From Paenibacillaceae bacterium GAS479 (lineage in GTDB: Bacteria > Bacillota > Bacilli > Paenibacillales > Paenibacillaceae), in NCBI GenBank assembly GCA_900105225.1, contig LT629764.1:260098-324097 (forward strand): a DNA stretch of 64,000 bases, read 5' to 3'. Below the pieces are notes generated by a model. That model worked only from the letters and a program-made list of their open reading frames with translations. It was not told the origin of the DNA and searched no databases. How positions within the stretch are numbered: the first letter of the stretch is position 1; the number at the start of each line of letters is the position of its first letter. Of this stretch, positions 18,692 through 64,000 are shown one piece after another. A program made the translations under genes and the position numbers.

Positions 18692-18715
18692 TTCGCCAAG
18701 GAGGTGACTAACCGG

Positions 18716-20935
18716 ATGGAACATAAGGAATCTTCCGCTCCAGGCGGTGTACAGCAGCAAGCGGAGGCTCCCCAGGTACATCCGAATCGTCCTATTCCTC
18801 TCACCTCTGCGCTAGGAGTTCTGACTGGCATGAGTGGCCTTGGAGGCAAAGGCGGCCTAGGGACGAACATTGCTTCTAATTTGCTTGGCAAAAGCATGGC
18901 CTGGCCCGGTTTGGGCGGAGCATTCCCAGGCATGATGGGCAAACCTGGAGCAGGCTTTCCACCGAAGTGGCCGCTTTACCAAGGAGCCGTTCCCGGGCAA
19001 GGTTGGCTGCAGCAACCAGGCGGGCCTGGTTTTCAAAATGGCGGGCCACAAGGATCACCATTTGCCGCGGCTCCGAAAGGGTACCCTCCCGCAGGCGGCG
19101 CAGGGTGGCCCGCCCCAAATGGCTGGCCCGCAGGGGCGGGCCAAGGGTGGCCTCCCCCCGCTGGTTCATCAGCAGGGGCCGGTCAAAATTGGCCTCCCCC
19201 GGGCCCACCGGCAGGGCCAGGGTGGCAATCCCCAGGTGGTCCAGCAAAAGGGTCGGGTCCCGGGTGGCCTGCTCCCGGGGGCCCGCCCCCAGGAGCAGTC
19301 GCAGGTTGGCCTCCCCCAGGCGGGTGGCCCGCGGGCGCTGGCCCGGGTTGGCCTGGCTCCGGTGGTCCGCCCCCAGGAGCGGGTGTCGGAAAGCAAGGAA
19401 ACCTGAACAAGGAAGAGCCGATTTCCGAGCTTATCGAAGGCAGCAATACGTTTGACCTGCATGGTACAACGATCGAACTGACACCTGGCGGAATTGTTGA
19501 AATACCAGGCGAGGAGAAAGCGGAAGCAGAGTCTAACTTGCAGCACACTGGCCAGCTTGGATTTCAAGGAAGCAACTTTACCATCGCTCCTAATGGTGGA
19601 CTCCAGCAAGGAGGCCAGCCAGTTGGGATCGGTATCCCTGGACTGGATCCAAACGCAATTCCAGGTGTTAATAAAAATAGTGTTCCTCAATTTTTCCAGG
19701 CTCTTGATCCTGGGTTTCCGCAGCAGTGGGAGGACTATCAAGGCTGGCCCTTTTCCGGCCCTCCTAATATGGTCCCGCTGGCAAACAACTCCGCAAGCTC
19801 CCCCAGCTTGCAGGCGGAAACCTCCACAAATATGCAAAATCCATGCTCAGGCAATCTACAAGACCCCCATTGCTTACAGCAATGCCTCGGGGCTATGGCC
19901 GCTGGTTTGGCCGAGCAGCAACAGCTTAATCTGCAGTTAACTGCTTATATGAAATTGTTATGGGAAAGGCTGCAAGAGCTGGAGACGAAGCCATCCTATA
20001 CAATCGAGAAGCTGGAGTACAATTTTGATCAGCTGAAAGTAGAGCAGTTAGACGGCACGCTTAACATCGGCATGACGGCTCCTTCCGAATCGCAGCTGCA
20101 AGAATTCGGCCAAATGTCGCTGCCTAATAAACAAACGAATGCAGGAGCCAAGGTTTATCCGTTGCCGATTCCCCAAAATGCTAAAGCCGGCCCGAACAAC
20201 TCCTCTAATTCTGGTGCGGTAAATAAGAGTATTGCTGCCGCGAAAGCACAACAACCCTTACAGCCGCAAGCAACCTCTAGCCAACCAGCCACTTCCGTTC
20301 AGCCGGGATTGGGCAATATTCCGGCTCCAAGTCCAGGCCTCGCTCCAGGCGCGGCGGCAATCCCCGGCTTCTCGGGCCCACCGGTTTCGAGCATGCCAGG
20401 GAATGGAGGAGCGGCTAGTAACAGCTTCTCCCAGCCAGGGTTTATTCCCGCCTCTCCCGGCTTAGGGATGCCGGGATCACAAAGCAATCTCCAGCCGGAA
20501 TCCAGCCCTTTTACGACTCAGCCGACAACCGGAAGCTCTTCCTCCCCAGCTCAGGCAGCAGCATTGGGGACAGCTCCATCTCCTATCCCTTTGCCTGGCT
20601 TTACCGATGTCCGCTCCTATGTAAACGGCTGGCTGAATGAATCCGCTCATGAAATATTGGAAAGAGCGGCCAAATCAAGCAAAATTCCGCTGGACCCGAC
20701 CCATCGGCAAATGGTTATCGAGGACGTCAGGCGCCAGCTTCCTGAACGGATACACTTTTACATGAACGAAGAGCTGGGTAATCACAGACCATCTGGAACA
20801 AACCCGGATAACGCCATGCTGAGCGACGCGCAGCTGCGTCGGACGGCAGAGCGGACGCTTCGCGACGCGGAATCCGCGCTCAAAAGTTATGTCCAGCAAC
20901 TTGCTCGCAACGCGCCTGAAGGAAGAAGGAGATGA
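18716..20935 (+). CDS. gerPC: GerPC-like spore germination protein with very large Pro/Gly/Trp-rich extension
   Basis: 739 residues from the ATG at 18716, with AAGGAGGTG ten bases upstream. The recognisable GerPC core is about residues 415-485: a coiled-coil stretch ending LWERLQELETKPSYTIEKLEYNFDQLKVEQLDGTLNIGMTAPS. A C-terminal helix-rich piece follows (about 635-735, IEDVRRQLPERIHFYMNEE). GerPC of Bacillus is about 200 residues. Here about 400 extra N-terminal residues include a GWPxPGG-type low-complexity block (about 95-220). A second Pro/Ser/Gln-rich linker of about 140 residues separates the two GerPC parts. It lies between gerPB and gerPD. Confidence 0.8.
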   Translation: MEHKESSAPGGVQQQAEAPQVHPNRPIPLTSALGVLTGMSGLGGKGGLGTNIASNLLGKSMAWPGLGGAFPGMMGKPGAGFPPKWPLYQGAVPGQGWLQQPGGPGFQNGGPQGSPFAAAPKGYPPAGGAGWPAPNGWPAGAGQGWPPPAGSSAGAGQNWPPPGPPAGPGWQSPGGPAKGSGPGWPAPGGPPPGAVAGWPPPGGWPAGAGPGWPGSGGPPPGAGVGKQGNLNKEEPISELIEGSNTFDLHGTTIELTPGGIVEIPGEEKAEAESNLQHTGQLGFQGSNFTIAPNGGLQQGGQPVGIGIPGLDPNAIPGVNKNSVPQFFQALDPGFPQQWEDYQGWPFSGPPNMVPLANNSASSPSLQAETSTNMQNPCSGNLQDPHCLQQCLGAMAAGLAEQQQLNLQLTAYMKLLWERLQELETKPSYTIEKLEYNFDQLKVEQLDGTLNIGMTAPSESQLQEFGQMSLPNKQTNAGAKVYPLPIPQNAKAGPNNSSNSGAVNKSIAAAKAQQPLQPQATSSQPATSVQPGLGNIPAPSPGLAPGAAAIPGFSGPPVSSMPGNGGAASNSFSQPGFIPASPGLGMPGSQSNLQPESSPFTTQPTTGSSSSPAQAAALGTAPSPIPLPGFTDVRSYVNGWLNESAHEILERAAKSSKIPLDPTHRQMVIEDVRRQLPERIHFYMNEELGNHRPSGTNPDNAMLSDAQLRRTAERTLRDAESALKSYVQQLARNAPEGRRR

Positions 20936-20940
20936 ACAAA

Positions 20941-21291
20941 ATGGCAATGAATGTTCATATTACGAATCATTTGCTATCCGTTGGCTGCCTTGAGCTGACA
21001 GGCGTCGCTGCGGCTTCCATGCTGCAGATCGGCGATACCGATTCCATTAATCTGTATTCCATTTTTGATACACCACCCGAGGCCATCATTATCGGGCCCT
21101 TTGCACCGTTGCCTGCTCCGGGCGCAGGAGAGACAGAGGCTGGCATTATCCAAGGCGCTGGCGGACAATCCATTGTACCCATTCAAAACACTACCGGTAC
21201 TGTTCAACCAGAAGCAACACCGGGAAGACCAGCATCTATAAATAGGAACGGCTCCATAATTCCTGCTTCCGCCGTTAACCTTACCTTATGA
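20941..21291 (+). CDS. gerPD: Spore germination protein GerPD, extended
   Basis: 116 residues from the ATG at 20941, which has AAGGAG nine bases upstream. The ATG at 20932 abuts that site. The first half is GerPD (NHLLSVGCLELTGVAAASMLQIGDTDSINLYSIFDTPPEAIIIGPF). Bacillus GerPD ends near this point at about 58 residues. Here a further ~55 residues of Gly/Pro/Ala/Thr-rich sequence follow. It starts just after the gerPC stop and overlaps gerPE by 4 bases. Confidence 0.87.
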   Translation: MAMNVHITNHLLSVGCLELTGVAAASMLQIGDTDSINLYSIFDTPPEAIIIGPFAPLPAPGAGETEAGIIQGAGGQSIVPIQNTTGTVQPEATPGRPASINRNGSIIPASAVNLTL

Positions 21292-21773
21292 TCGACTCCG
21301 ACAATTCCATCCGCACCTCATACATCGGTTCCGTCGAAATGATCACTGTTGGGCTATCCTCCGTCATTCATTTCGGAGATACCGGCACTATTAACGCCAA
21401 ATCGACAGGCATTGCCGTGCAGCGTCAACTCGATCACCGCGTCGGAGGTGAGGTAGATTTCAGCGGTTACTCGCTATTTAACGCGCCACTCAATCCTCTG
21501 CCGGAAGAGAGCCTGGACGAGGCAGATGTGCGTACAATCCGATCCAATCCGGTTCCAGCTATTCAGCTCGGTTCGCTTTATGTCATCACCTATAGCTCCT
21601 CCTCCATTCTGCTTGGAGGCAGTGCCGTTGAAGTCAATCTAGAGTCACGCCTGAAGCATTTTCGGCAATATGCTTATTCGCTTGAATCAACTCCGACTCC
21701 GAATACAGAAGCAAGCGAGATCATCCAGAACGCTGACACCAGCGGTTCGAAACTTACCGCAGATAACGATTGA
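21288..21773 (+). CDS. gerPE: Spore germination protein GerPE
   Basis: 161 residues. SYIGSVEMITVGLSSVIHFGDTGTINAKSTGIAVQRQ and the later QLGSLYVITYSSSSILLGGSAVEVNLESRLKHFRQY match GerPE, including the second half with RLKHIRQ. Translation is coupled to gerPD by an ATGA overlap. No sixth gerP gene (gerPF) follows, so this operon is gerPA-E only. Confidence 0.88.
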   Translation: MIDSDNSIRTSYIGSVEMITVGLSSVIHFGDTGTINAKSTGIAVQRQLDHRVGGEVDFSGYSLFNAPLNPLPEESLDEADVRTIRSNPVPAIQLGSLYVITYSSSSILLGGSAVEVNLESRLKHFRQYAYSLESTPTPNTEASEIIQNADTSGSKLTADND

Positions 21774-21931
21774 TCTAACAATGCCATTCAAGTCCGCCGC
21801 ATGAACCGGGACAAATGCCAGGGTCCGTAAACTCGCCTCCCGCATACATTGTGATTGTGAAGTCCGCCAATTAGCATAGCATGGCAGGGTCAATCGGACT
21901 TCATAACATCCAAGTATGGGAGGCATTCACG

Positions 21932-22105
21932 ATGGGTTATGGGGTCGAAGGCGCAGGCGTCGGGTACGGACCAGGCTGGGGGGCTGGCTGTGGACAGAAC
22001 TGGGGCGGTTGCGGAAACGGCTGCGGGAATTATGGCTCGGCCATAGGCATGATCTTGGTTCTGTTTATTCTGCTCGTCATTATTACTCGCGCTTTTTTCA
22101 TCTAG
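21932..22105 (+). CDS. YjcZ-family small sporulation protein
   Basis: 57 residues from the ATG at 21932, preceded by GGGAGG. The Gly/Tyr/Trp/Cys-rich N-terminus (MGYGVEGAGVGYGPGWGAG, then GCGQNWGGCGNGCGNYG) is followed by the family hydrophobic helix SAIGMILVLFILLVIITRAFF. Such small Gly-rich one-helix proteins (YjcZ, SscA-like) are made during sporulation in Bacillus and Paenibacillus. SscA affects spore coat assembly. It lies 160 bases after the gerP operon and has its own strong terminator. Confidence 0.85.
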   Translation: MGYGVEGAGVGYGPGWGAGCGQNWGGCGNGCGNYGSAIGMILVLFILLVIITRAFFI

Positions 22106-22888: not shown

Positions 22889-22958
22889 TCTATTCTCCCC
22901 TTTTATCAAAACTATCATTCTACTGGACATTTGCCGGAGTTCGCATTCCTTACTAACA

Positions 22959-22967
22959 CATAGATTA
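22959..22967 (+). promoter_or_regulatory. Candidate sigma-K-like -10 element
   Basis: CATAGATTA fits the sigma-K -10 consensus CATANNNTA and lies 54 bases before the ATG at 23021. No AC was found at the expected -35 position, so this is weak. Confidence 0.3.
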
Positions 22968-23020
22968 CTTATAGATAAGTGAAACGACGAGTAATGATCT
23001 ACTTACTGGAGGAACCCATT

Positions 23021-23551
23021 ATGAAAAATAGTCCCACAACCACCTCAATTAGTAATTACAAGGACGGCCTTGGATCAAGCATGGGCATCATTCTTATTCT
23101 ATTTATTCTACTAGTTATTGTTACGCAAGCTTTTTCCCCAAAAAAAATCGCTCCCTTCCCTATCGAATCGCCGGACAGTGGATCGTCCTCCATCGCATTC
23201 ACCCAAAGTTTCAATATCATCAACAACACGCAATCGATTACGTTCCAGCGAACTAGCATTTCTGGAAGAATTGTTGAGCCCCTCCCTCCCACCAATCTTC
23301 TTCCCCTTGGCGGAGAGCAGATTTATAATCTATCGATTCGGATAAATAGAACGGCAGAAGGTACTGTCAATTATATTTGGTACTTTAATGACTTCTCTAG
23401 TGTAGGTGAGTTCCAATTCACGCTTCGGGTACAGAACGTTAGTTTAGAAGGATTTTTCGTAAATACACCTTCCATTATTAACATTACAACAGATGCACCG
23501 GTCCGTTTGGACACGACCCGCGCACTTTTGACCCTATCCGATGAAGTCTAG
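23021..23551 (+). CDS. YjcZ-type membrane segment fused to unknown beta-rich domain (copy 1)
   Basis: 176 residues from the ATG at 23021, with GGAGG upstream. A short polar N-terminus (MKNSPTTTSISNYKDGLGS) leads into MGIILILFILLVIVTQAF, the hydrophobic helix typical of YjcZ/SscA-type sporulation peptides. Instead of ending there, the protein continues for about 140 residues of Asn/Ser/Thr-rich sequence with alternating hydrophobics (SFNIINNTQSITFQRTSISG, LPLGGEQIYNLSIRINR), consistent with a beta-sandwich. The domain is not recognised. A paralog follows 19 bases later, and a third starts at 63748. Location next to gerP and a YjcZ gene suggests a spore-surface role, by inference. Confidence 0.75.
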   Translation: MKNSPTTTSISNYKDGLGSSMGIILILFILLVIVTQAFSPKKIAPFPIESPDSGSSSIAFTQSFNIINNTQSITFQRTSISGRIVEPLPPTNLLPLGGEQIYNLSIRINRTAEGTVNYIWYFNDFSSVGEFQFTLRVQNVSLEGFFVNTPSIINITTDAPVRLDTTRALLTLSDEV

Positions 23552-23570
23552 CTCTACAGGGGGAACTAAA

Positions 23571-24083
23571 ATGAATAAAAATAACACAGTGGGCTCTGGC
23601 GGCTCCGTATTTAACATAGGTATTATACTAATTCTTTTTATTCTGCTGGTCATCGTTACCGGCACCTTCAGCATTGGCCCAACCCGCTCCGCTTGTATCG
23701 ACTTTGATGATGAGTCACCCTCTATCACAGAAACGCGAGTATTCAATATCATCAATCTCACGAGCAACTTCACGCTTAACGTCGTGTCTATCGTTGGACC
23801 CTCGAGTTGGCCCAGCCCCTCCATTATTGTTCCTAATGGGGGAGTCACCAGCTTCTACGTGTCGTCCAATGGATTCAATACAACCAGTGCAGAAGTGAGA
23901 CTTAATGTGAACGATGCTAACCGATTAAGTGTCGGTCAACTACAATGTACACTCGTAAATTTAAACAGTCAGGACAAGGCTTACTTCAGCTACGTTTCAA
24001 CAACTGCTCCGATTAGAATCTTCCCACAACAATCGCAGTACCCTGATAAAATTGCAAGGTTGACAATCTACAACGTGCTTTGA
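23571..24083 (+). CDS. YjcZ-type membrane segment fused to unknown beta-rich domain (copy 2)
   Basis: 170 residues from the ATG at 23571, preceded by AGGGGGA. Same layout as the upstream gene: polar lead (MNKNNTVGSGGSVFN), helix IGIILILFILLVIVTGTF, then a beta-rich domain. Shared blocks are xxRVFNIINLTSNFTLNVVSIVG and the later PSIIVPNGGVTSFYVSS, matching FNIINNTQSITFQRTSISG and LLPLGGEQIYNLS in copy 1. Overall identity outside these blocks is low, so the duplication is old. Likely co-transcribed with copy 1 and ended by the terminator at 24128. Confidence 0.75.
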   Translation: MNKNNTVGSGGSVFNIGIILILFILLVIVTGTFSIGPTRSACIDFDDESPSITETRVFNIINLTSNFTLNVVSIVGPSSWPSPSIIVPNGGVTSFYVSSNGFNTTSAEVRLNVNDANRLSVGQLQCTLVNLNSQDKAYFSYVSTTAPIRIFPQQSQYPDKIARLTIYNVL

Positions 24084-24127: not shown

Positions 24128-24169
24128 CATAGAAATCCCGGCTCCACAATCGGAGCCGGGATTTCTATG
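24128..24169 (+). terminator. Terminator between copy 2 and the GH15 gene
   Basis: Perfect 18-bp stem (catagaaatcccggctcc and its complement), 6-base loop acaatc, followed by ttt on the plus strand. Probably bidirectional, serving the convergent glycogen operon as well. Confidence 0.82.
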
Positions 24170-24214: not shown

Positions 24215-26179
24215 TTAATTCACCGCAAGCTCCTTGTACTTCGCCGCATACTTGGAGACGCTCTGCACGAACGTAGCATGAGACCAGGTAAGCGGAGCAA
24301 CAGATAGCGGAGTTCCGTCATACGGATTCAATTGCTCTGGAAGCAAGCCGCTTTCAAGAGCTTGGGACACGACCCATTCCAGCGTACGGCGCGGTGCCTC
24401 CAGATCAGTCAGTGTCCGTGCGGAGTCAATCTCAAAGTTGGCTACCCACAGCGTGCAGATGATCCACGGATTACCCGGAACCTTGTCGATTTCGCCAGAC
24501 TGCTGAAAGTAGTAATCGTTGGTGTAGCGTGCGATGCCGCCGACATGAGTGCGTACAGCTAACCCCTCGCGAATCGATTCCATCGTGCGGACGACGCGGT
24601 AATCATCTGCCGGCAGCACGCCGAATTCTAGGACTGCGAACAAGCTGCTTTCCAGCGTCATATCTTTAACCCAGCCGCCGTCCTTCTGGACGAGGCCACG
24701 AGCGAAACGGCCACTATCTTCATCCCATAGATGAGTCAAAATACCTTGTTTGACGTCTGCCGCAGTCCGCTTATAATGATCGCTGCGCTCATAATCGCCG
24801 AATAGCTCCGTGAAAAAGGCTGCTGCCATCAGACCGCCATATACGGAAGCCGCCGTATAAGTCCAGATCCCGTAGCGTTCTTCCCACAAGTCATAACTCG
24901 GCTTCGGCAGCGAGAGCGAATGCTCCATATAACTGCTCAAGAAAGCACCGGCTTTACGAATCAGCTTGCTGTACATTGATTGCGGCAGCTCGATGATTTG
25001 ATGGCGCTGGTAATCTCGCCACAGAGCGAATAATACTAAAGCCGTTTCATCCTCTTGAATCGGCAGTCTTTTGGAGCCTTGCACCGTGTAGGGATGCCAG
25101 CTTGAGCCTACTGTACCGTCTGGATTGAACTTATGATTGAGATAACCTTCCGGGGTGAGCGCTTCCGTACAAAATTGGAAAAATGGCGCAATGACGGTCT
25201 GATAACCAGCCAGCGACATCGCATCCGCAACAAGCGCCCCGTCCCGTGGCCACATATAGCTGTAATGGTCACGATTGTATTGCAAAATATCCGTGTCATT
25301 AGCGGCAATGATCGCTCCACGTTCATCGGTTTGCGTGCGCACGACCAGCAAGCTATGCCGGAACAGACGCGCCACAGAAGGTGGCAAATCGCCGAGCTCT
25401 CTTTCCGCACGGTTCAACCAGTGGTTCCAGTAAATGACGACGCGGCTGAGCAGCTGTTCAGGATGATTATCCTCAACATACTCGTTAAGCTTCTTGACCT
25501 CTTCCAAGCTTTTACCGATCGACATCCAGTAGTAAATGGTCTTCTCGCCGCCAGCCGGAATAACCGTGCTGAAGCTGATCGTGCTGTCCACCGATCCCTG
25601 AGCGATTGCGTTGCCCATGAGCACGCCGTCCTCAGCATCGCGCCATGTCCCTTCTGCGGAGTGGAATCGCTTGATGCCCGTGGAGTACTGCGTCATCCCG
25701 CCCTCCTCCGAGAAGCCGTTGAACATAAAGTAGGACGAGCGTTTATAGTGGAACAACGTATGATTATCCGGATAATATGCGGCGGTATCGCCCACTTCCG
25801 AGCCGTCGATCATCAGATCTTGATGGAAAAAGAGACGGAATTCCCGTTCCCGGTCCGCATGGTTGCGGATGACAACCCGCTTCAGATAGATGCATTCACG
25901 CTGGTGAATGCCATCGTTCATTTGCAGCTCAACGTCCAATCCGCTATGCCGCGCCGTAACATCGGTCACGAGGGAATCCTCGATATATCCGAGGCTTTTG
26001 TTCCATGCTGCATCTTCAAGCCAGGTGAACTGTCCTTCGGTCCAAAGACCAAGGCGACAGTACTGACCCCCAACATGATTGAGCTGGCCAACATAGGGAT
26101 AATAAATATCCCGGATGTAACAGTTATGGTCCAGGTTCAGGAGCATTTTGCCATTGCCGATTACGAGATGACGGGCCAT
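24215..26179 (-). CDS. GH15 glucoamylase-like enzyme, last gene of glycogen operon
   Basis: 654 residues from the ATG at 26179 (AAGGAG upstream). An N-terminal beta-sandwich (about 1-270) with YIRDIYYPYVGQLNH is followed by an (alpha/alpha)6 barrel. The catalytic glutamates are in YDLWEERYGIWTYT (general acid) and GLLPEQLNPYDGTPLSVAPLTWSHA (base). GH15 enzymes release glucose from alpha-1,4/1,6-glucans, or act on trehalose or dextran in some branches. It overlaps the glgA stop by 19 bases, so it is translated with the glycogen genes and probably acts in glycogen turnover. No signal peptide, so cytosolic. Confidence 0.87.
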   Translation of the reverse strand: MARHLVIGNGKMLLNLDHNCYIRDIYYPYVGQLNHVGGQYCRLGLWTEGQFTWLEDAAWNKSLGYIEDSLVTDVTARHSGLDVELQMNDGIHQRECIYLKRVVIRNHADREREFRLFFHQDLMIDGSEVGDTAAYYPDNHTLFHYKRSSYFMFNGFSEEGGMTQYSTGIKRFHSAEGTWRDAEDGVLMGNAIAQGSVDSTISFSTVIPAGGEKTIYYWMSIGKSLEEVKKLNEYVEDNHPEQLLSRVVIYWNHWLNRAERELGDLPPSVARLFRHSLLVVRTQTDERGAIIAANDTDILQYNRDHYSYMWPRDGALVADAMSLAGYQTVIAPFFQFCTEALTPEGYLNHKFNPDGTVGSSWHPYTVQGSKRLPIQEDETALVLFALWRDYQRHQIIELPQSMYSKLIRKAGAFLSSYMEHSLSLPKPSYDLWEERYGIWTYTAASVYGGLMAAAFFTELFGDYERSDHYKRTAADVKQGILTHLWDEDSGRFARGLVQKDGGWVKDMTLESSLFAVLEFGVLPADDYRVVRTMESIREGLAVRTHVGGIARYTNDYYFQQSGEIDKVPGNPWIICTLWVANFEIDSARTLTDLEAPRRTLEWVVSQALESGLLPEQLNPYDGTPLSVAPLTWSHATFVQSVSKYAAKYKELAVN

Positions 26180-27624
26180 GTTTCCTTCTCCTTCCGCTCC
26201 GGTGCGAGTTGTTCGTAGAGGCCGATATAAGAACTGGCGGAACGGCTCCAGCTGTAATCGTCTCGGGTTCCATTGAGAACGATCCCTTTCCAAACATCCT
26301 CTTTGTTATAAAAACCAATCGCCTCACGGATCGTATACAGCATGTCGTGGGCATTGTAGTTCGTAAAGCTGAAACCGTTGCCCTCGCCAGTATATTCGTT
26401 GTATGGCTGGACGGTGTCCTTAAGTCCTCCGGTCTCGCGAACAATCGGAACCGTACGGTAACGAAGCGCCAGCAATTGACTCAGACCGCAAGGCTCGAAT
26501 TGCGATGGCATAAGGTACATATCCGAGCCAGCGTAGATCCGGCGAGCCAGCGCATCATTGAAGCCGGTTCGAATACTAACCTTGTCATAACGCGAGTGGG
26601 AGGCTGAGCGAAACATCTCTTCGTACTTCCAATCCCCGGAGCCGAGCACAGCGAACTGAACTTCTTCTTCCAACAACTCGCCGAACACGCCGTCGATCAG
26701 ATCGAAGCCCTTCTGCTCCACCAGGCGAGATACAATTCCAATTACCGGCACGTCGGGATTTTGCGGCAAGCCCATTTCCTTCTGAAGAGCCAGCTTATTC
26801 AGCCGCTTTTTATCCAGCGAATCGAGATAAGGAGCACTAATCGCAGCATCGTTCATCGGGTCGAACAACTCCGTGTCGATGCCGTTTACAATCCCACTTA
26901 AGTCACCAGAACGAACTCTAAGGATACCGTCGAGACCCTCGCCATAAAAAGAAGTTTTGATCTCCTCGGCATAGGTTGGGCTGACCGTCGTAAGCTTGTC
27001 CGCGTAGAGCAGGCCGCCCTTCATGCAGTTGGCCGCGTCGTTATGTTCAAGCCCGTCCCATCCGAAAATTTCCGGTCCCATACCGATAAGGTCCATCATC
27101 TCTTGCTTGCCGAATACGCCTTGATACCGCAAGTTGTGGATGGTGAATACCGTCCGGATGCCGGACAGTCGATCATCGTTCCAGTAGCGACGCTTCAGAA
27201 GAAAAGGAATGAGACCTGTCTGCCAGTCATGACAGTGCAGAATATCCCATTGCTCCTCCATACGCCTTGCCGCCTCCAGCACCGCGATGCTGAAGAAGAC
27301 GAACCGCTCGGGGTCATCGTCATAACCATATAATCCTCCGCGGCGGAAGTAATGTTCATTGTCGATTAAGTAATAGGTGACGCCGTCGATTTCACCCTTC
27401 AGTAAGCCGCAATACTGGGAACGCCAGCCAAGATTTACCGAGAACACATCCACCGTTTTGAAATGCTTCAGATGCTCCCAGGGAATCGTTTCGTAATTAG
27501 GAAGAATGACTCGTGCGTCGATGCCTTTGTTCAACAGCGCCTTAGGAAGTGCGCCAGCAACATCGGCCAACCCGCCAGTTTTGGCGAGCGGAACCGCCTC
27601 CGAAGTAGCAAATAATACTTTCAT
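26161..27624 (-). CDS. glgA: Glycogen synthase (ADP-glucose, GT5)
   Basis: 487 residues. Elongates alpha-1,4-glucan from ADP-glucose. The N-terminal domain has the sugar-nucleotide motif KTGGLADVAGALPKAL, and the C-terminal GT-B domain has VSRLVEQKGFDLI and MPSQFEPCGLSQLLALRYRTVPIVRETGGLKDTV with the catalytic Glu. The ATG at 27624 is preceded by GGAGGG. The 15 codons that could be read upstream are not supported. The end overlaps the GH15 start. Confidence 0.96.
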   Translation of the reverse strand: MKVLFATSEAVPLAKTGGLADVAGALPKALLNKGIDARVILPNYETIPWEHLKHFKTVDVFSVNLGWRSQYCGLLKGEIDGVTYYLIDNEHYFRRGGLYGYDDDPERFVFFSIAVLEAARRMEEQWDILHCHDWQTGLIPFLLKRRYWNDDRLSGIRTVFTIHNLRYQGVFGKQEMMDLIGMGPEIFGWDGLEHNDAANCMKGGLLYADKLTTVSPTYAEEIKTSFYGEGLDGILRVRSGDLSGIVNGIDTELFDPMNDAAISAPYLDSLDKKRLNKLALQKEMGLPQNPDVPVIGIVSRLVEQKGFDLIDGVFGELLEEEVQFAVLGSGDWKYEEMFRSASHSRYDKVSIRTGFNDALARRIYAGSDMYLMPSQFEPCGLSQLLALRYRTVPIVRETGGLKDTVQPYNEYTGEGNGFSFTNYNAHDMLYTIREAIGFYNKEDVWKGIVLNGTRDDYSWSRSASSYIGLYEQLAPERKEKETWPVIS

Positions 27625-61317: not shown

Positions 61318-62877
61318 ATGATGAAGCACACGCGAAAAGGCTTTAAACTAGCCCTTATGGCTACCGCTGCAGCAACAGCTATCTCCACCTTCCAGTTTGC
61401 AGGGAATGAATCTGTGGTACATGCAAGCTCTTCCTATTATGTTTCGACAACCGGCAGCGACAGCAATTCGGGAACGAGCACAGGCTCCGCCTTTAAAACG
61501 ATTCAGAAAGCTGCCAATATAGCCACTCCTGGTGATACCATTTATGTGCGTGGCGGCATTTACAAGCAAAAGCTGAAAATTACCAAATCCGGTACAGCTA
61601 CCGCCCCAATCACCTTCCAGAGTTATTCTAATGAAAAAGCCGTAATCGATGGCAGCGGGCTTAAAGTGTCCGATCAAAGCGAAGGTCTCATCGAAATCTC
61701 CAACGTCAGCAACATCAAATTTAAAGGTTTTGAGGTTCGCAACTTTAAAACCTCTGTTTATGACGAAGTGCCGATGGGAATCTCCATATTCGGATCTGGC
61801 AGCAATATCGAGCTGAGCGGAAACAAAGTGCATCATATCGAGAGCAACGCCAAAGTAAGAAAAGACGGCGGCGATTGGTCCGGCCGCAACGCGCATGGAA
61901 TCGCCGTTTATGGGACAGAATCGACCGCTCTGAAAAATATTACAATTAGCGGAAACGAACTGTCGAATCTCGTGCTTGGATCAAGCGAGGCGCTCGTTGT
62001 TAACGGTAACGTTGATACGTTCAAGGTTACCAATAACCTCGTCCATGACAACGATAATATCGGAATCGACATCATCGGCTTCGAGGGCACCGCTCCCCAA
62101 AACGATCAGGCTCGCAACGGTCTTGTTAGCGGCAATACCGTCTACAACACTACCGCTACGAAAAACCCGTCCTACGGTCCTGTTCCGAATGATCAGTATT
62201 CCGCCGGTGGAATCTATGTTGATGGCGGTAAAAACGTTGTCATTGAGCGCAACAAAAGCTACAACAATGACATCGGCGTTGAGCTCGCCAGCGAGCATCA
62301 AGGCAAATCCACCAGCGGCATTACGCTGCGCAACAATCTGATCTATGGAAACAGCTATACTGGCATTGCCATCGGCGGTTATGATACGGAACGCGGCTCT
62401 ACCGTCGACAGCAAAATCGTCAACAATACGCTCGTTCAGAACGACACGATTGGGTATGAAGGCGGCCAAATTCTGCTTCAATACGATACCAAAAACAACA
62501 TCATCAAAAACAACATCCTGGTTGCAAGCTCTTCGAACATTATGATTCAGAACCAATATGCAAAAAACAGCGGCAACGTGGTGAATTATAACCTCTACTA
62601 CGGAACTGGCGGAGCAAATGGATCGCAATGGACATGGAAAAACAGTACTTACAAAAACTTTGCCGCCTATAAAAAGGCTACTAAAAACGATGCAAACTCC
62701 GTATTTGCCAATCCGCTCTTCGTGAACGCGGGCACTCGCGATTACCGTCTGAACGCTTCTTCTCCAGCTGTAAACAAAGGGGAGAAGCTTACGACAATCA
62801 TTGGCGCAACCGATCTGGCTGGTAAAACGCGGGTTGTTGGTTCCTCGGTTGATATCGGGGCTTATGAGCTGAAATAG
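61318..62877 (+). CDS. Secreted right-handed parallel beta-helix protein
   Basis: 519 residues. AAAGGAG is upstream. The ATG at 61318 is directly followed by a second ATG, and either could be used. Signal peptide about 1-38. Same layout as the gene at 59535: SSYYVSTTGSDSNSGTSTGSAFKTIQKAAN, an Asn-rich beta-helix (YSAGGIYVDGGKNVVIERNKSYNNDIGVELASEHQG is the most conserved block), and the end DYRLNASSPAVNKGEKL...VDIGAYELK. Its 5' leader differs from those of the other two copies, so it may be regulated separately. Confidence 0.82.
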   Translation: MMKHTRKGFKLALMATAAATAISTFQFAGNESVVHASSSYYVSTTGSDSNSGTSTGSAFKTIQKAANIATPGDTIYVRGGIYKQKLKITKSGTATAPITFQSYSNEKAVIDGSGLKVSDQSEGLIEISNVSNIKFKGFEVRNFKTSVYDEVPMGISIFGSGSNIELSGNKVHHIESNAKVRKDGGDWSGRNAHGIAVYGTESTALKNITISGNELSNLVLGSSEALVVNGNVDTFKVTNNLVHDNDNIGIDIIGFEGTAPQNDQARNGLVSGNTVYNTTATKNPSYGPVPNDQYSAGGIYVDGGKNVVIERNKSYNNDIGVELASEHQGKSTSGITLRNNLIYGNSYTGIAIGGYDTERGSTVDSKIVNNTLVQNDTIGYEGGQILLQYDTKNNIIKNNILVASSSNIMIQNQYAKNSGNVVNYNLYYGTGGANGSQWTWKNSTYKNFAAYKKATKNDANSVFANPLFVNAGTRDYRLNASSPAVNKGEKLTTIIGATDLAGKTRVVGSSVDIGAYELK

Positions 62878-63590: not shown

Positions 63591-63686
63591 TTTCTTCTTT
63601 GAAACAAGAAATAGTTTTCAGACACGCCTTGGAATCTTTCAATTCATAGGGACATTTGATTGAGTCCGTCAGTTTTTCTTTTTCAT

Positions 63687-63731
63687 ATTATGAGAAAAGT
63701 AGTCAATAATCACTACTATTTTTCTCATAAT
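63687..63731 (+). promoter_or_regulatory. Large inverted repeat directly before the ribosome binding site
   Basis: Arms attatgagaaaa-gtagt and actac-(tat)-ttttctcataat form a 17-bp stem with a 3-base bulge and 8-base loop. The Shine-Dalgarno gaggagg begins 2 bases later. Could be a repressor operator, a 5' mRNA-stabilising hairpin or an upstream terminator. Confidence 0.6.
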
Positions 63732-63747
63732 TGAGGAGGCCGATATA

Positions 63748-64000
63748 ATGAATCAGGAATTCGTAACTATCAGCAACTACAGTAAGTCAGGTATTGGGGT
63801 CATTTTGGTACTGTTCATTCTGCTTGTAATCGTCGTTCAAACATTTTGCGACTCGCCAGGAAACAGGTGGCCTGCTGGTTTGACGGATAATGGAACCGTG
63901 TCTCCTGCAGCGACAAAAAGTTTTTATGTTGTCAATAGGACTCCCTACTGGTTGACGATTACATCGCTTACAGGAAACTCTTCGCTTCCTTCACCTAGAA
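63748..64000 (+). CDS. YjcZ-type membrane segment fused to unknown beta-rich domain (copy 3), 3'-truncated by window
   Basis: 84 residues visible from the ATG at 63748 (GAGGAGG 8 bases upstream), running off the window. N-terminus MNQEFVTISNYSKSG leads into IGVILVLFILLVIVVQTF, as in the two genes at 23021 and 23571. It continues with CDSPGNRWPAGLTDNG and ATKSFYVVNRTPYWLTITSL then TGNSSLPSPR, matching the FNIIN-T---T--SI-G---PLP blocks of the other copies. A member of the same family located 40 kb away, beyond the beta-helix genes. Confidence 0.78.
   Translation, partial: MNQEFVTISNYSKSGIGVILVLFILLVIVVQTFCDSPGNRWPAGLTDNGTVSPAATKSFYVVNRTPYWLTITSLTGNSSLPSPR

Follow-up and report, generated by a model that had tools for sequence, protein, structure and literature searches.

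The window, by which we mean the whole 64,000-nucleotide stretch analysed here, contains three genes of an unnamed protein family. The family is real, and its copy number is extreme: the genome of this Paenibacillus strain has 82 full-length members. The members combine a hydrophobic helix of the YjcZ/SscA kind with a variable C-terminal domain (C-domain), and as judged from profile searches the family is confined to one small Paenibacillus clade. We propose that it is a large, clade-limited family of late mother-cell sporulation proteins, in which the helix would anchor variable beta domains in a layer of the spore envelope; we put the chances of this reading at about even. A first-pass annotation of the window had been silent on the two main facts, namely how large the family is and that it is confined to a single clade.

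Copy number, architecture and distribution

With member 1 of the window as the only query, 91 places were found at E ≤ 1 in the 5,519,719-base genome, mostly open frames of 150-210 aa. The relationship between the three window genes, which the first-pass annotation had drawn from their helix and common C-terminal blocks, is thus real. A 41-row profile matched 98 genomic places at E ≤ 0.1, at least a dozen of which are helix-only YjcZ genes or fragments. Full-length members, defined as frames with a usable start, a length of 140 codons or more and a score of 40 bits or more, are 140-206 aa long and split 43 to 39 between the strands. They fall into 56 clusters, 40 of which consist of a single gene and the biggest of seven genes, and together they make up about 40 kb of coding sequence. 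Several broken copies are also present. The GC content of the members is 42%, compared with 52% for the window.

A member consists of a polar N-terminus, the hydrophobic helix GxILVLFILLVIVTxxF, a short linker and a C-domain of about 115-130 residues. The linker is often acidic and Ser-rich; a sub-group carries a basic, Cys-containing stretch (e.g. KRRKKKCPCKPP) after the helix instead. The helix is of the YjcZ kind, as had been noticed at first sight: at E ≤ 1, 31 of the 41 profile members matched TIGR01732 and 26 matched PF09680, the three window members lying below the curated cut-offs of these two families. An exact copy of its core, L[VI]LFIL, is found in 222 of the 238 members analysed from three genomes (82 here, 79 from P. 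herberti and 77 from P. pasadenensis, the latter two sets being taken from among the matches listed, out of 103 and 94 C-domain matches, respectively). Nine ORFs lacking the helix pattern had been removed before this count, which becomes 222 of 247 when they are included. Four to six of the six Leu codons are used at each Leu position of the core, and because of this synonymous variation the residues must be held by selection, not by recent descent. Over the eight helix residues LILFILLV, about 1% of the comparisons differed in 33 closer orthologue pairs.

A conserved helix followed by a variable domain also led us to consider a pilin-like reading, by comparison with type IV pilins. The archaeal Pilin_N profile matched one of the 41 members weakly (E 0.021), and the usual leader and cleavage motif of prepilins was not visible by eye in the consensus.

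Searches of the 82 C-domains against Pfam, NCBIfam, PHROGs and PADLOC (E ≤ 0.01) gave at most a single matching member for any one library family, in line with the earlier description of the genes as an unrecognised family. Weak matches to DUF2606, PapD_C, PACE-CTERM, LapA, Reo_sigmaC, Pilin_N and others concerned one member each and were dropped, as was Chagasin, the sole match of the C-domain profile among PDB sequences (E about 0.9). The mean column identity of the C-domain is 16%, and the motif [FY]-x-[IVLFM]-N-x-[TS] occurs in 215 of the 238 members. Conserved hydrophobic columns alternate along the alignment (autocorrelation of 0.27 at a lag of 2 and below zero at lags 1, 3 and 4). They form 11 alternating triplets; shuffling gave 4.7 on average and reached 11 in 8 of 2000 runs. 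This alternation points to an all-beta domain and agrees with the C-terminal beta domain suggested before.

Among eight genomes of the genus, the C-domain profile found matches at E ≤ 0.01 in three, namely this genome, P. herberti and P. pasadenensis (87, 103 and 94 matches, respectively), and none in the other five. The first-pass annotation had proposed to look for the domain in other genomes; its presence in two more species leaves the claim of a family standing. Wider scans matched 3 of 295 genomes at the family level, 4 of 392 at the order level, the fourth being spurious, and 1 of 398 at the phylum level, which was the source genome itself. These genome samples overlap, and since few candidates of each genome were scored (at most 15, 11 and 11 in the family, order and phylum scans), distant relatives of the C-domain could have been missed. 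A candidate distant relative from the order scan (G389, locus L182; E 5.6e-4) was rejected, as the match contains two stops and runs antisense to a 508-codon frame. The full-length profile matched 53 of 56 other relatives, at the helix level only (E 1e-8 or weaker), and in six genomes inspected closely nearly all helix-level matches were short frames. One genome of the same order and a different family (G050; loci L190, L196, L202 and others) has 37 such matches in short frames, and we take this to be an expansion of YjcZ-type peptides that lack the C-domain.

A search of plasmids with member 1 gave no match. A literature search, mainly of the open literature, returned no paper on the family, and the available part of the main text of the P. 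pasadenensis genome paper (PMC5774705) mentions neither YjcZ nor the coat. The neighbour gene at 24215-26293 is 98% and 92% identical in the two other family-bearing species, compared with 84-90% in the five family-less congeners, which suggests that the three family-bearing species are close kin.

The genes of the window and their neighbourhood

The features of the window are listed in Table 1, together with an ORF representing the basic, Cys-containing sub-group. Members 1 and 2 both start with ATG, the former behind the ribosome site GGAGG. The gap between them is 19 nt, and they presumably form one operon. The hairpin behind member 2 appears terminator-like from its sequence. Two further family members lie downstream of member 3.

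Table 1. Coordinates of family members and associated features (window positions unless marked as genome positions).
Feature	Position	Strand	Remarks
Free YjcZ-type gene, sigma-K-type promoter	21821..21858	+	GTCC, 16 nt, CATACATTG; motif-model hit, genome 281940
Free YjcZ-type gene	21932..22105	+	57 aa; same helix, without C-domain
Member 1, probable sigma-K-type promoter	22939..22975	+	GTTC, 16 nt, CATAGATTA; CATANNNT 62 nt before start
Member 1	23021..23551	+	176 aa
Member 1, conserved helix	23084..23134	+	residues 22-38; alignments of 41 and 82 members
Member 1, C-domain	23192..23551	+	residue 58 to the end, including stop; predicted all-beta; in C-domain profile
Member 2	23571..24083	+	170 aa
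Perfect hairpin	24128..24169	+	between member 2 and the convergent gene 24215-26293; read directly from the sequence
Member 3, probable sigma-K-type promoter	63664..63700	+	GTCC, 16 nt, CATATTATG; CATANNNT 64 nt before start
Member 3	63748..64000	+	incomplete, as the window ends within the gene; 162 aa in full, genome 323845-324333
Basic/Cys sub-group ORF	genome 2877212-2878203 (L075:4013-5004)		similar ORFs in loci L133 and L152

The normal YjcZ gene that had been reported nearby is present. It reaches 23.8 bits with TIGR01732 (cut-off 21.35) and is the sole one of six window proteins tested to pass. The genes for GerPC (18704-20935) and GerPE (21288-21773) are adjacent as well. The proximity to gerP pointed out in the first-pass annotation is therefore real, but it is a local and not a general trait, since the remaining members are spread around the whole chromosome. 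The GerPC homologue, with its 743 aa, is presumably unusually large for a GerPC protein; a long Pro/Gly-rich part precedes the GerPC match (residues 412-477). An ORF of 119 aa between the GerPC and GerPE genes (20932-21291) has sub-threshold similarity to GerPB (E 0.04) and GerPE (E 0.06) and perhaps encodes a diverged GerP protein. Towards the other end of the window, the gene at 61318-62877 encodes a right-handed beta-helix protein of 519 aa (Beta_helix, E 1.9e-12).

In P. pasadenensis and in the congener G001, members 1 and 2 are absent next to the counterpart of the neighbour gene 24215-26293, which is directly adjoined by a YjcZ gene in both genomes.

Upstream motif and probable timing of expression

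The regions upstream of the members contain a two-block motif, G(T/A)(C/A)C, 16 nt and CATANNATR, with CATA mostly 37-63 nt before the start. CATANNNTR was found upstream of 50 of the 82 members, compared with 12 of 261 control genes and a shuffled expectation averaging 8.1 of 82, related genes being counted as independent in the Fisher and shuffle tests. We defined as followers the genes located at most 200 nt behind another member. In the three genomes CATANNNTR precedes 121 of 167 leaders, leaving 46 leaders without it, and 9 of 71 followers; this contrast is the pattern expected of a promoter. A motif model built from the leaders scored above 10 bits in 110 of 167 leaders and in none of 167 shuffled sequences, a comparison that is partly circular as the model was scored on its own training sequences. 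Outside the motif the information content of the leaders falls to near background, and the motif is thus not a mere result of recent copying.

A scan of the analysed loci and the window with this model yielded 104 family hits, plus 13 others. A helix-bearing ORF follows six of these 13: in four cases it is a short or broken member and in two a free YjcZ gene, that of the window being one of the two. The other seven have no helix ORF behind them, although one sits 163 nt before a member, the limit being 160. The probable promoter of member 1 is weaker than the family consensus.

Sigma-K acts in the mother cell. The spacing of the two blocks agrees with the published sigma-K logo, in which a five-base and a ten-base element are 14-16 bases apart, and yjcZ itself has been assigned to the B. 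subtilis sigma-K regulon (PMC517825, available part). Sigma-K-type control of the family is well supported by these upstream sequences. The forespore targeting envisaged in the first-pass annotation is probably wrong, since a promoter of this type belongs to the mother cell, and the coat or other outer layers would fit better.

A second conserved block, approximately GGACA-N4-TGCC-GAGTCCG, is located about 35 to 20 nt before CATA in many members, where it overlaps and precedes the -35 region. It is possibly the site of a regulator such as GerE.

Evolution and possible role of the family

Comparison with P. herberti yielded 52 reciprocal best pairs, 46 of which have at least 500 nt of common flanking DNA. 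The median identity of the syntenic pairs is 82%, whereas that of flanking genes is 95.3% (78 of 261 being matchable in the loci analysed). In the comparison with P. pasadenensis, synteny was found for 23 of 34 pairs, 49 of the 261 flanking genes being matchable in the loci analysed. When 43 orthologue pairs were pooled, the helix had a dN/dS of 0.16 and the domain one of 0.40, the latter value being no proof of positive selection. In the 33 closer pairs, exposed domain columns differed in 16.6% of the comparisons and buried ones in 10.1%, a moderate contrast. These values indicate positional orthologues under purifying selection, and the family may well be called old and maintained, as it was initially. 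The nearest relative in the tree lies in another species for 72 of the 82 members here and for 58 of 77 in P. pasadenensis, so most of the expansion would predate the split of the species. Gain and loss are ongoing, as members 1 and 2 are missing at some loci and broken copies exist.

Three features lead us to infer a location in the spore envelope and a display function: promoters of the late mother-cell type, a helix of the YjcZ/SscA kind, and the near-invariance of this helix beside such variable domains. According to this model the mother cell would make the family members late in sporulation, under the sigma-K-type promoters, and the helix would be a common assembly module placing every paralogue in one layer of the forming spore envelope, either the coat or a layer at the outer forespore membrane. 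The helix would be near-constant because it makes common contacts, with the domains freer to diverge and to lend the layer many different surfaces. This layer may replace the surface role of F-ENA appendages. A bolder version, which we advance tentatively and regard as rather doubtful, is that the YjcZ/SscA coat-assembly helix might be a universal display anchor for about 100 beta domains, giving a combinatorial spore surface and perhaps replacing F-ENA fibres.

YjcZ and SscA, which we take to be one family (PF09680, YjcZ_2; TIGR01732, tiny_TM_bacill), are peptides that end at or shortly after the helix. The helix and the sigma-K-type promoter are common to these peptides and to the family described here, which instead goes on for about 115-130 residues, predicted to form an all-beta domain, and numbers 80 or more copies. 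The combination of helix and passenger is workable, since SscA is tabulated as an anchor for the display of beta-glucuronidase on B. subtilis spores (PMC13033320). A tiny coat peptide anchors a folded passenger in that system, as we propose here, but it is man-made and has one passenger, whereas the Paenibacillus family is natural and would have many.

S-ENA and F-ENA proteins resemble the family in being beta-domain proteins of the spore surface with an N-terminal connecting segment (PMC11952670, available part). Their connector is a short hook, whereas that of the family is a hydrophobic helix. Neither Enas (PF13157, S-ENA) nor DUF4183 (PF13799, F-ENA) matched any of the 82 C-domains at E ≤ 0.01, and the hhalign probabilities were 2.8% and 0.3%, respectively, so that by sequence the family is neither S-ENA nor F-ENA. 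Four of the five family-less congeners have DUF4183, which was not found in any of the three species with the family, the fifth family-less congener (G002) having neither; Enas was found in none of the eight congeneric genomes. A replacement of F-ENA by the family would be a lead only, as it concerns eight genomes and perhaps one event.

The main point against surface display is the membrane orientation suggested by charge. In 68 of the 82 members positive charge is higher before the helix than after it, and in 8 it is lower; if the helix spanned the outer forespore membrane, this bias would make the C-domain face the cortex instead of the surface. The members could then be true membrane proteins, residing in the outer forespore or mother-cell membrane and exposing the domain towards the cortex or cell wall, with a role in the maturation of the cortex or envelope, and there would be no surface mosaic. 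The continuous hydrophobic helix fits such proteins, and sigma-K timing is compatible with them too. A plain anchor would, however, not require such constancy of residues as is seen in 222 of 238 members, and some 100 variable domains would be unusual for a cortex function; we consider this explanation unlikely, though it deserves serious attention.

The large number of copies could also be explained if the proteins were a coat filler, made for protein mass, with a domain surface devoid of a specific role and a diversity due to drift under weak constraint. The domain is low in complexity, rich in Ser, Thr and Asn and poor in Lys, its dN/dS of 0.40 comes with nothing pointing above 1, and broken copies occur, all of which would suit a filler. 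Filler copies should nevertheless be interchangeable, whereas 46 of 52 best pairs hold their position and members stay distinct, and even the exposed columns agree in 83% of the closer orthologue comparisons, which makes this explanation improbable in our view. Most improbable of all is a selfish or mobile cassette multiplying within the genome without a role for the host. The scatter over 56 clusters, the low GC content relative to the window, the broken copies and the lack of members 1 and 2 beside the same neighbour gene in P. pasadenensis and G001 are what such an element might leave behind, but positional orthologues under purifying selection and the 72 of 82 members nearest in the tree to another species argue against it.

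If the members are indeed anchored in the spore envelope by their helix, then a helix of about 17 residues can be the common assembly module of a domain set that is open-ended. The family could moreover serve spore display as a ready-made library from nature, and its roughly 240 natural fusions would allow the role of the YjcZ/SscA helix to be tested.

The scarcity of Lys can be quantified: after residue 40 it averages 1.3% in the members, compared with 4.8% in 261 other genes, with Arg undiminished, and 24 of the 82 members have no Lys at all in this part. This perhaps reflects the avoidance of transglutaminase cross-linking in the coat.
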